Shown here piece after piece: positions 15,741-42,419 of a DNA stretch of 46,803 nucleotides. The DNA comes from Candidatus Zambryskiibacteriota bacterium (GTDB taxonomy: Bacteria > Patescibacteriota > Minisyncoccia > Phycocordibacterales > DATDWN01). How positions within the stretch are numbered: position 1 is the stretch's first letter; each line of letters starts with the position of its first letter. The notes under the pieces are model-generated. The model had not been told where the DNA came from, did not search any database, and was given only the letters and a program-made list of their open reading frames with translations. The position numbers were made by a program, and so were the translations under genes. The stretch covers positions 1 through 46,803 of the forward strand of contig JAHFOB010000007.1 in the NCBI GenBank assembly GCA_023267045.1, read 5' to 3'.

Positions 15741-15780
15741 GAATGCTTTGAAAACAAGCTAAATATGAAAGTAATTAAAA

Positions 15781-15903
15781 AAACTTTCATAATTTGGATG
15801 AAGTTCAAGGCGGAAAGATAAATGGACGAGGAGCCGTATTTGAAATACGGTGATGAGAACATTTGGCTTTCCAACGCAGAAATTCGCCAAATTTGGAAGT
15901 TTA
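15781..15903 (+). ncRNA. Candidate structured element, copy A (typA leader)
   Basis: Terminal stem AAACTTTCATAATTTGG / CCAAATTTGGAAGTTT; inner stems GGAAAG/CTTTCC, AAATG/CATTT, CCGTATT/AATACGG; core GACGAGGAGCC..GGTGATGAG. Confidence 0.5.
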
Positions 15904-15908
15904 ATATT

Positions 15909-17753
15909 ATGGAAATTCGCAATATAGCAATAATAGCCCACGTCGACCACGGTAAAACAACCCTGACAGACGCCCTAATGAAGCAGACGGGCATGACAAC
16001 CGAAGAAGGCGCTACTATGGACTCAAACGCCCTTGAACAGGAGCGCGGTATTACTATATACGCCAAAAATACTTCCGTTTATTACCCATCCAAGGAATCT
16101 GGCCGAGAAGTGACAAAAATAAATATCGTTGATACTCCCGGCCACTCTGATTTCGGCTCCGAGGTAGAACGCGTTCTACGATCGATTGACACTGTCCTCC
16201 TTTTGGTTGACGCACAGGAAGGTCCGATGCCTCAAACACGTTTTGTTTTGAAAAAATCTCTTGAATTAGGATTGAAACCAATTGTTATTATAAACAAAAT
16301 AGACAAACCGGCTGCTCGACCAGACGAAGTTCACGAAATGGTTTTGGAACTTTTTCTCGAACTCGGAGCAAATGATAGTCAGCTCGATTTCACAACAGTT
16401 TTCGCTATCGGCCGAGAAGGAGTAGCAAAAATGAAATTGACAGATGAATCAAAAGATCTCACTCCCCTTCTTGAAACTATTTTGAAAGAAGTACCTCCAG
16501 CAAGTGGAGACAAAAACTTGCCAGCTCGACTCCAATCTTTTAACCTGGCCTACGACAACTTTCTTGGACGCCTAGCTGTTTGTCGAGTGTACGAAGGTAC
16601 AATAAAAAATGGCGACATTGTGTTTGTAAAAAGTCATGCCGTAAGTCCTGACCAAAGGGAAGGAGCAATAAAAACAGTTACAGGAAAACTGACAAAAATG
16701 TTCTCTTTTGAAGGAGTAAAGCGAGTGGAAACACAGGAGGCAACCGCTGGGGATATTGTTATGATCGCTGGACTTCCAACTGTCTACATCGGTGACACGA
16801 TTTGCAAAGACGAAAATGCTGTGCTTTTGCCGTCGATAAACATTGACGAGCCGACAATTTCACTAAACTTTTTAGTTAACGACTCGCCGTTTGCAGGACG
16901 TGAAGGAAAATTTGTGACCGGAAGACAAATCCGTGAACGACTAGAGAAAGAGCTGGAAATAAACGTCGGATTGAAAGTTGATTGGAACCCCAGTAGTGGA
17001 GCAGAGCTCACTACGGGGCAAGCAAAAAATATTGAAGGCTACACAGTCTATGGCAGAGGAGAGTTACACATTGCAATCCTCTGTGAAAATATGCGACGCG
17101 AAGGATATGAATTACAAGTTTCTCAACCACAAGTTATTATAAAAGAAGTAAATGATGTCAAAATGGAACCGTTTGAGGAAACTATTGTTGATGTGCCTGA
17201 TGCAATGGCAAGTTCTGTTATTTCCAAACTGACAGAGCGCAAGGGCTTACTGATGAACGTAAAACAAGGTCACGGTACACAGAGACTGACATTTGAAATA
17301 CCAACTCGCGGACTGTTGGGTTACAGAGGTGCATTTATGGTAGACACAAAAGGTCAAGGAATCTTGTCGTCACGATTTGTAGAATTTAGAGAATACGTTG
17401 GCGAAATAAAAAGAACAAAATACGGATCAATGGTGTCAATGGAGAGGGGTAAAGCTCTGGCCTTTGCACTAGACAACTTACAACAGAGAGGAACTTTGTA
17501 TATTGACCCAGGAACTGAAGTTTACGAAGGTATGGTTATCGGCAATGTTTCAAAAGGCGATGACTTATCTGTAAATCCAACAAAAGGAAAACAACTGACA
17601 AACATGCGAGCATCTGGTTCAGACGATAGCGTTTACCTTGCCGCAACAGTAAAACTTGATATAGAAAAAGCTATGGAAATAATGTCTGGTGACGAATTCA
17701 TAGAAATAACTCCAAAATCAGTTCGCTTGCGAAAGAAGATTATAAAAAAATAA
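15909..17753 (+). CDS. typA: Ribosome-associated translational GTPase TypA/BipA
   Basis: [57 protein letters not shown]; start moved to ATG 15909. Confidence 0.95.
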
Positions 17754-27238: not shown

Positions 27239-27363
27239 CTAAGACCTCTCAATTCTGAAATAATTGTAACACAGAAATTTTTTGAAAAATTTAAAACAGT
27301 GGAAAACTAATCCACCACTCTGGGAGGATTTTTAGCCAAAATTTCCACAAAATACACAACCAC

Positions 27364-27557
27364 AAACTTTCAAATTTGAGGGAATTTCGACGGGAGAAAT
27401 GCAAAAGACGAAAAGCCTTAGTTAGTGCTAAAGTGATGAGTATTTTGCATTTGGGTGAGAAGCGAAGCTTCGCAAGACCTTGAGCATTATTTATTCAGAA
27501 TGCGAAAGGTGTACAGTTTCTGTAAGAAACGAGAAATTTACCAAATTTGGAAGTTTA
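27364..27557 (+). ncRNA. Candidate structured element, copy B (abuts rpoD stop)
   Basis: Terminal stem AAACTTTCAAATTTG / CAAATTTGGAAGTTT; perfect AAATGCAAAA/TTTTGCATTT around GACGAAAAGCC..AGTGATGAG. Confidence 0.5.
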
Positions 27558-27558
27558 T

Positions 27559-28848
27559 TTACAAATAATTACGCAACCTGTTGATCTTGTCATGCTGTCT
27601 GATTTTTTCATGCGCCTTGGCCTCAATCTGTCTAATTCTCTCTCGAGTCACACCGAATTCCTTACCCACTTCTTCTAGTGTATGTGTTACCCCGTCAACC
27701 AAACCGTGCCTTAGCTCTAGAATTTTTCTTTCTTTTTCTGGTAAGTCATTTAATATTTCTTTTACCTGATCTGAAATAATTCGTCGTGATGCTTCTTGCT
27801 CTGGTGAAAGAATTTTGTCATCTGCCAAAAAGTCACCAAGTTTACTTTTACCATCGTCTTCTTCACCTATTGGACTTTCTAAAGACAGAGTGCTTTGATC
27901 TATTTTTTCGATTGTATAGATTTTATCAACGGTTAGATTCATTTCTGTAGCAATTTCTTCTGGTAGTGGATCACGACCAAGATCTTGTGAAAGTCGTCTG
28001 ACAACCTGCTTATATTTAGCGATAGTTTCTACCATATGCACAGGCACACGAATAGTACGTGATTGGTCAGCCAGTGCGCGAGTGATAGCTTGACGAATCC
28101 ACCATGTTGCGTAGGTTGAAAACTTATATCCTTTAGTCCAGTCAAATTTATCTACCGCTTTGAAAAGACCAAGGTTTCCTTCCTGGATAAGATCAAGGAG
28201 TGTTAAGTCGGCACTGCGATTTGCATACTTTTTAGCAATTGAAACAACCAAACGCAAGTTTGCTCGCGCCAAAAGATTTTTGGCTTCAATATCTCCGGCT
28301 TGAATACGACGGGCCAGTTCCTTTTCCATACTTCCGGAAATGAGTTGATATTGACCGATTTCTTTCAAATACATCTGGATTGAGTCGTATGATGACTCAC
28401 TTGCTCGTCCATATGTATATTTTTTACCGACCAAGTCTTCTGCGGATGGAGTCTCTAGTAATCCTCCACCCTCGAGCACGTCAATACCTCCAGTTCCAAG
28501 TTTTTCGTAAAGTTCATCCAAAAATAAAATATCTTCTTCGACATTTGGAAACTCTTTTAAGATCTCATCGTATGTAACATAACCACGCTCTTTTCCTTTG
28601 GCTAGAAGTTTTGCCATACCTTCTTGCTGTCTATCATGTTTTTTGGTTGGCTTTATCTGCTTTGATGATTTACCCCCAGATGAACCCGCGTAAAAAGTTT
28701 TTCCTTTCTTTTTGTGACGCAGTTTAGGCACTTTTATTTTTGCCTTTTTAGCTTTTTTTGTAGCTCTTTTCACCTTTTTTGTCGCTTTTTTGGCGGACTT
28801 TCGTGATTTGAGCTTATTCTTTTTTGATTTTGATTTACTTTTTTTCAT
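27559..28848 (-). CDS. rpoD: RNA polymerase primary sigma factor
   Basis: [60 protein letters not shown]; Lys-rich N-terminal extension. Confidence 0.96.
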
Positions 28849-39848: not shown

Positions 39849-39970
39849 AGAATTTTTTCAGACAGATGCAGTTCGAGGCGGACGAGGAAAATCATTCGAG
39901 CCTTACAAGTGTAAGGTGAGAATTATTTTACCGAAGTGGAGCAAAGAAATGCACTGTATGAAAAATTTCT
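39849..39970 (+). ncRNA. Candidate structured element, copy C (upstream of lexA operon)
   Basis: Terminal stem AGAATTTTTTCAGACAG / CTGTATGAAAAATTTCT; inner CCTTAC-aagt-GTAAGG; AGTTCGAGGCGGA shared with copy A (AGTTCAAGGCGGA). Confidence 0.45.
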
Positions 39971-41987: not shown

Positions 41988-42419
41988 TCATGAGAATCTG
42001 AAACGACCTGTGGTACCGTAGTCTTTCTTGCCTTGGTTTGCTATATACTTTTTGATCATTTCCTCATTTAGGCCTACAGTCGATACGAAATATCCCACAC
42101 TCCAGATGCTGCCGTCTAGGTACATGTCACGTATGAATCTAAATCGTTTCTTCAGTATTGCACTTGATTCTGATTTGAGTCTTTGAACAACGGCAGCTAT
42201 GGAGAGGTTTGGTGGTATTTCGATTTGGAGATGAACATGGTCATCGTTTGTGTTAAAAGAGTGTATGTGGAGTGTGGGATATTTCTTAGTGGCATGATAC
42301 AAATATTTTCTTAATTCTTGCTTTGTGTATTCCTTTATATACTTTCTTCGATATCGAGTTCCCCAGACTATGTGGTATTCAATTTGATACTTTGAGTGGT
42401 TTAAGTTTCTGATTCTCAT
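41988..42419 (-). CDS. IS200/IS605 (Y1_Tnp/HUH) transposase TnpA
   Basis: YHIVWGTRYRRKY, HUH motif DDHVHLQI, RLKSESSAILKK, catalytic-Tyr region EEMIKKYIANQG. Confidence 0.92.
   Translation of the reverse strand: MRIRNLNHSKYQIEYHIVWGTRYRRKYIKEYTKQELRKYLYHATKKYPTLHIHSFNTNDDHVHLQIEIPPNLSIAAVVQRLKSESSAILKKRFRFIRDMYLDGSIWSVGYFVSTVGLNEEMIKKYIANQGKKDYGTTGRFRFS

Follow-up and report, generated by a model that had tools for sequence, protein, structure and literature searches.

A hairpin upstream of typA in a patescibacterial genome is best read as one copy of a mobile palindromic repeat family with stop-codon polarity

A stable hairpin ends 6 nucleotides before the typA start codon at position 15909 of the window, by which we mean the whole 46,803-nucleotide stretch of Candidatus Zambryskiibacteriota DNA that was analyzed. 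The initial annotation presented this hairpin (copy A) as a candidate structured RNA, with two further copies (B and C), and thereby implied a discrete cis-regulatory or noncoding RNA family tied to typA. The locus thus raises the question of whether the hairpin belongs to typA or to something dispersed. In the best reading, the interpretation shifts from a structured RNA before typA to a patescibacterial family of mobile hairpin repeats polarized toward stop codons. Copy A probably belongs to a new family of mobile palindromic repeats that are non-autonomous, resemble REP, RUP, or ERIC elements, and are mobilized in trans. The features concerned are listed in Table 1.

Table 1. Hairpin elements, their parts, and adjoining genes in the window
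Feature	Positions	Strand	Basis
Copy A, complete hairpin element, CGAGGAG/TGATGAG loop class	15780..15902	+	Model R1, 121.2 bits, E 1.5e-26; MFE z -6.9
Copy A 5' outer arm, AAACTTTCATAATTTGG	15781..15797	+	Sequence, fold
Copy A tandem-G.A internal loop, 5' strand, GACGAGGAG	15825..15833	+	Sequence; conserved in alignment A3
Copy A tandem-G.A internal loop, 3' strand, TGATGAGAA	15851..15859	+	Sequence; conserved in alignment A3
Copy A 3' outer arm, CCAAATTTGGAAGTTT, GGAAG within	15887..15902	+	Sequence, fold
typA, downstream of copy A	15909..17753	+	First conserved ATG, start shared by orthologues
Copy B, mosaic of family arms, truncated family core, and extra multi-hairpin domain	27362..27559	+	Fold z -5.8; R1 core match 27397-27452, 30 bits
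Extra recurring module in copy B, GCAAGACCTT...GAAAGGTGTAC	27472..27514	+	Pattern in 14/302 loci, including overlapping copies of one site; 0 expected in window
Sigma-70 family gene, antisense, stop codon abutting copy B	27559..28848	-	Pfam Sigma70 regions 1.1-4
Copy C, complete hairpin element, TTCGAG/TGAGAA loop class	39849..39969	+	Model R1, 89.9 bits, E 7.3e-19; MFE z -7.5

Copy A is a near-perfect 122-nucleotide hairpin. Its minimum free energy of -44.1 kcal/mol was not reached by any of 200 dinucleotide shuffles (mean -22.5, sd 3.1), and the stems named in the initial annotation are present at 15781-15902 and fold as described. The internal loop had been called asymmetric and likened to tandem-GA or kink-turn motifs. 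It places GACGAGGAG opposite UGAUGAGAA, is symmetric (9/9), and can be read as two tandem G.A pairs with standard pairs between them (C-[GA]-G-[GA]-G / U-[GA]-U-[GA]-G). The tandem-GA description therefore fits. The kink-turn motif is not supported, because the loop is symmetric and lacks the 3-nucleotide bulge beside the tandem G.A pairs. The GGAAG within the 3' arm is a possible Shine-Dalgarno sequence for typA. Copy A lies in the presumed 5' leader of typA and, as a guess, may sequester this ribosome-binding site.

The common plan proposed for the three copies extends to copy C, and to copy B only in part. Copy B has the family arms and some of the core, and carries an extra domain: about 75 of its 198 nucleotides form additional hairpins. 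The sigma-70 gene's stop codon directly adjoins the 3' end of copy B. The module GCAAGACCTT...GAAAGGTGTAC, with small hairpins on its flanks, also occurs in or beside hairpin elements at L238, L115 (the typA site of G010), L192, L168, L150, and L152, and an Rfam search with this module gave no match. Separately, a gene for an IS200-type Y1 transposase is located near copy C (41988-42419, minus strand).

Rfam models applied to the whole window detected only tRNA, permissive thresholds added just noise, and nothing matched the hairpin at the gathering score. The Rfam comparison suggested in the initial annotation thus assigns the hairpin to no known Rfam family. A BLAST search with copy A found several copies in its own genome, and copy L002 as query gave matches in 15 of 41 genomes (its own and 40 relatives). 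Covariance-model searches revealed about 20 copies in the 750-kb genome itself and 6 to 54 per genome across the family (17 genomes, all with copies); of 191 other genomes sampled from the phylum, 12 gave matches, including 14 in G144 and 6 in G141. The initial annotation had made its case depend on homologous structures in related genomes, and these exist. The hairpin consensus is approximately 122 bp long and ends in TARAACTTYCAAATYTGG...CCARATTTGRAAGTTYTA; distant copies retain GATGCAGTTCGAGGCGGAAG...CTTCCAACGAAGAAATGCG with different stems. An exact-pattern scan of genome contigs yielded three matches in unrelated organisms, which we take as chance, and carriage by phages was dismissed because pattern matches in viral contigs gave no model match. 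The counts below refer to 123 distinct copies from the family, the better-scoring ones among about 400, and to ORF-based gene calls.

The fold is maintained on one strand. In a 29-copy alignment, 32 of 42 consensus pairs are changed on both sides. In a MAFFT alignment, 94.0% of cells are paired (77.4% when shuffled), and 191 cells are doubly changed yet paired, compared with 49.3 in shuffles; because the copies are related, these counts cannot be taken as independent. The alignment has a covariation score of 0.476, versus 0.165 for shuffled and at most 0.115 for slid alignments, and none of 500 shuffles equaled any observed value. The apparent covariation noted at the outset is thus above background. 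The strand drawn in the initial annotation is the more stable one in 122 of 123 copies and in all 27 copies from distant lineages. On this strand, the 123 copies contain 471 G.U pairs, compared with 143 A.C positions, and in the 29-copy alignment a G.U pair at columns 56-75 and a U.G pair at columns 21-111 are conserved.

Such covariation, together with the conserved noncanonical loops and wobble pairs, is what would be expected of a genuine cis- or trans-acting structured RNA, whose folded strand is transcribed, binds a protein or ligand, and controls adjacent genes. Such an RNA might act as a 5' leader at typA, nusA, rpsN, and rpmA, and as an antisense RNA at 3' ends. The conservation of the same core in distant Patescibacteria, the recurrent positions before typA, nusA, and rpsN, and a slight enrichment of promoter-like hexamers 11-40 nucleotides upstream of the element are also consistent with this explanation. 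However, covariation within a palindrome can also stem from template-switch correction, so the data establish a maintained fold and not, by themselves, an RNA function. The genes adjacent to the copies are also diverse housekeeping genes with no common pathway. These points, and those from placement and copying given below, make a structured RNA an unlikely general explanation.

The elements are placed with a marked polarity at gene boundaries. In 70 of 123 copies, an antisense gene has its stop codon at the 3' end of the folded strand, whereas this is true of the mirror side in only 3 of 123 and of 2.5% of control windows. The same placement is found for 15 of 27 copies in distant genomes. 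In a further 19 of 123 copies, including copy A, the 3' end lies just before the start codon of a sense gene (6% in controls). Most copies therefore lie antisense to a gene and directly at its stop codon, and not in 5' leaders, which argues against the structured RNA. A hairpin of the family precedes 8 of 16 typA orthologues. A typA leader or riboswitch was rejected as a general explanation, because of this dispersal of the copies and because the hairpin is missing at many typA orthologues.

The ends of the elements themselves carry stop-codon sequences. Watson-Crick pairing of the arms across the three bases of the stop codon is 71, 62, and 49%, versus approximately 30% at the last sense codon. 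At dprA, the arm follows the codon, which is AAA TAA in G000 and AAG TAA in G006. The terminal consensus is TARAACTT...AAGTTYTA, so the end of the element itself reads as a stop codon. TA is present at both ends of 52 of 123 copies, compared with about 8% expected from the 28% in a single-window control; it is enriched rather than universal, and is visible in distant lineages too. Avoidance of TGA among the targeted stop codons was also considered (49 TAA, 19 TAG, and 2 TGA) and is not significant relative to background (P 0.17). That the hairpins lie between stop codons and following promoters might suggest intrinsic transcription terminators placed after stop codons. However, a run of five T residues follows the hairpin in 0 of 123 copies on the plus strand and 4 of 123 on the minus strand, and the gene-sense strand forms the less stable fold, so that terminators are extremely improbable.

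The hairpin family is dispersed and recently copied, and is probably mobile. G005 contains four copies at unrelated loci whose cores are 97-99% identical, and similar near-identical pairs of cores occur in G010, G012, and G015. Several G005 contigs break off within near-identical cores, a pattern typical of assemblies that meet recent repeats. Such cores at unrelated loci indicate copying and not descent, which again argues against the structured RNA. The typA site is filled in G000, G002, G007, G008, G012, G013, G015, and G016 by elements of several subclasses, is occupied by a different multi-hairpin element in G010 and G014, is empty in G001, G003, G004, G005, and G006, and is unreadable in G011. 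The site behind lepA holds this element in G000 and other palindromes in G002, G010, G011, and G014; none was seen in G001, G003, G004, G005, G006, and G015. These comparisons of filled and empty sites are between species whose flanks are not alignable, and they prove no target-site duplication, a point against the mobile reading. The emptiness of sites in many sister species is a further point against the structured RNA.

Other hairpin classes were observed at these positions and elsewhere. At L189 (G002, behind lepA), L192, and L078, the palindromes belong to another class, in which the long arms are specific to the locus and the CTCGGCTACCCGCCTGCGA-like interior is conserved. L199 (G014) follows the lepA stop codon directly and is a long inverted repeat that has the TGA stop within its arms (TGAAATCTCGCC...GGCGAGATTTCA); it adds yet another hairpin class to this hot spot.

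The outer arms are locus-specific and are still complementary. In pairs of copies whose cores are at least 97% identical, outer arm positions differ, and several of the differences are compensatory. Compensatory arms are also expected from selection on an RNA, which is a point against the mobile reading. They fit two histories of the arms: rebuilding from the target by fold-back copying, or homogenization of cores among old sites. Conversely, other cores occur between the same arms (L240, L247, L237, and L238). A second arm class, GCTCAGAGGATTTTTG / CAAAAAGACCTGAGC, occurs with the same or related cores at L050, L058, L059, L029, L030, L166, and L185, suggesting modular exchange of arms and cores.

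The second history implies old, fixed hairpins whose cores are homogenized by gene conversion and whose arms are kept perfect by template-switch correction, with little or no transposition. It accounts for compensatory arms and near-identical cores as well as insertion does. Moreover, orthologous hairpin positions recur among sampled species in 14 gene groups, which exceeds a rough expectation and could mean retained function. However, the orthologous sites at typA and lepA are empty in some species and hold different palindrome classes in others, and the spread across the phylum is patchy. Because of the empty sites, rebuilding of arms at insertion is favored over homogenization of cores, and we regard old fixed hairpins as quite unlikely. 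Insertion into pre-existing palindromes was also rejected: a scan found no general supply of empty ones, and the pattern gave just three solo 20-bp versions. These palindromes, with the center TCCAAATTTGGA and no core (G002:C4:21838-21857, G011:C1:157995-158014, and G011:C2:205558-205577), may have arisen by excision or deletion, or may simply be terminators that lie between convergent genes.

None of the transposase families tested is present in all 17 carrier genomes, which counts against the mobile reading. The Y1 transposase (PF01797) is missing in 5 of 17 (G001, G002, G005, G011, and G015), IS630-type DDE_3 (PF13358) is found in only 1 of 17, and reverse transcriptase RVT_1 (PF00078) is found in 11 of 17. 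G005 lacks both the Y1 and the RVT_1 domain despite its recent copies. Mobilization by IS200/RAYT, IS630, or reverse-transcriptase enzymes was rejected, because each family is missing from genomes with recent copies. Several relatives encode longer Y1-domain proteins of about 210-245 amino acids, which are RAYT-like in size.

At least one tyrosine recombinase is encoded in 16 of 17 family genomes, including G005, which raises the possibility that the hairpins are attC-like single-stranded recombination sites and substrates of such an enzyme, perhaps the resident XerC/D-like one. In integrons, the folded bottom strand of attC lies antisense to the cassette gene, after its stop codon, and has a variable terminal structure. 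The hairpin family has the same geometry, with one folded strand antisense to a gene directly after its stop codon, an extrahelical A and mismatches near the base, and a variable terminal structure that includes cores of other classes on the same arms. Unlike attC, however, it lacks the RYYYAAC...GTTRRRY boxes (purine-rich sequence, not pyrimidines, precedes AAC), is not associated with cassettes or cassette arrays, and has no dedicated integrase that we could see. Its neighbors, such as lepA and typA, are housekeeping genes, and the three recombinases that we read look by eye like ordinary XerC/D. An attC-like site is therefore very unlikely.

For the mobile palindromic repeat that we prefer, we envisage the following mechanism. 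The element would move as a folded single strand, recognized through its arms, bulges, and tandem-G.A modules; the enzyme, a recombinase or transposase, would act in trans. The outermost arm bases may come from the target and be transferred to the opposite end through fold-back synthesis or template switching; this would explain why locus-specific arms still pair. At stop codons, the TAR end would supply or keep the stop, so that insertion is tolerated. A bolder extension, that these are phylum-wide genomic parasites of Patescibacteria that combine folded-strand movement through tandem-G.A modules, stop-codon targeting with fixed polarity, fold-back rebuilding of arms, and a host recombinase in place of a dedicated transposase, seems rather doubtful. 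The hairpin family reaches 54 copies per sub-megabase genome, is common to distant lineages of the phylum, and has a 70:3 polarity at the stop codons of housekeeping genes. With these traits combined, one can test directly how targets are chosen, how mobility is achieved without an obvious transposase, and what a hairpin next to a stop codon does to translation.

Proteobacteria, Neisseria, Rickettsia, and pneumococcus are well known to carry small palindromic repeats, but in the literature we found none described for Patescibacteria. REPs are 20-40 bp long with GTAG or CGTC tags, are extragenic, and lie near the 3' ends of ORFs; RAYT genes accompany the GTAG type, whose termini often supply a TAG stop codon (PMC3733652). 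The hairpin family resembles them in consisting of extragenic palindromes at ORF 3' ends with a terminus that provides a stop codon. It differs in its length of 122 bp, in having TARAACTT ends with no GTAG or CGTC tag, and in the lack of Y1 in 5 of 17 carriers. ERIC, NEMIS/Correia, and Rickettsia palindromic elements are repeats of 100-200 bp whose transcripts would form long stem-loops (PMC2229807). The hairpin family likewise has a length of 100-200 bp, terminal inverted repeats, a long stem-loop, and many dispersed copies, whereas those elements belong to other phyla and the hairpin family has strand-specific covarying loops that are shared across its phylum. The RUP element of Streptococcus pneumoniae is 107 bp long, has a TA target, and is thought to be mobilized by IS630-Spn1 (PMC2229807). 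The hairpin family is similar in size, in forming a hairpin paired from end to end, in its enriched TA termini, in its intergenic location, and in its many copies, and is different in that only 1 of 17 carriers has an IS630-type DDE_3 domain, and in its conserved tandem-G.A internal loops, polar placement at stop codons, and locus-variable arms. With its size, stem-loop structure, dispersal, TA termini, and recent movement, the hairpin family shares the traits of bacterial MITE-type elements.
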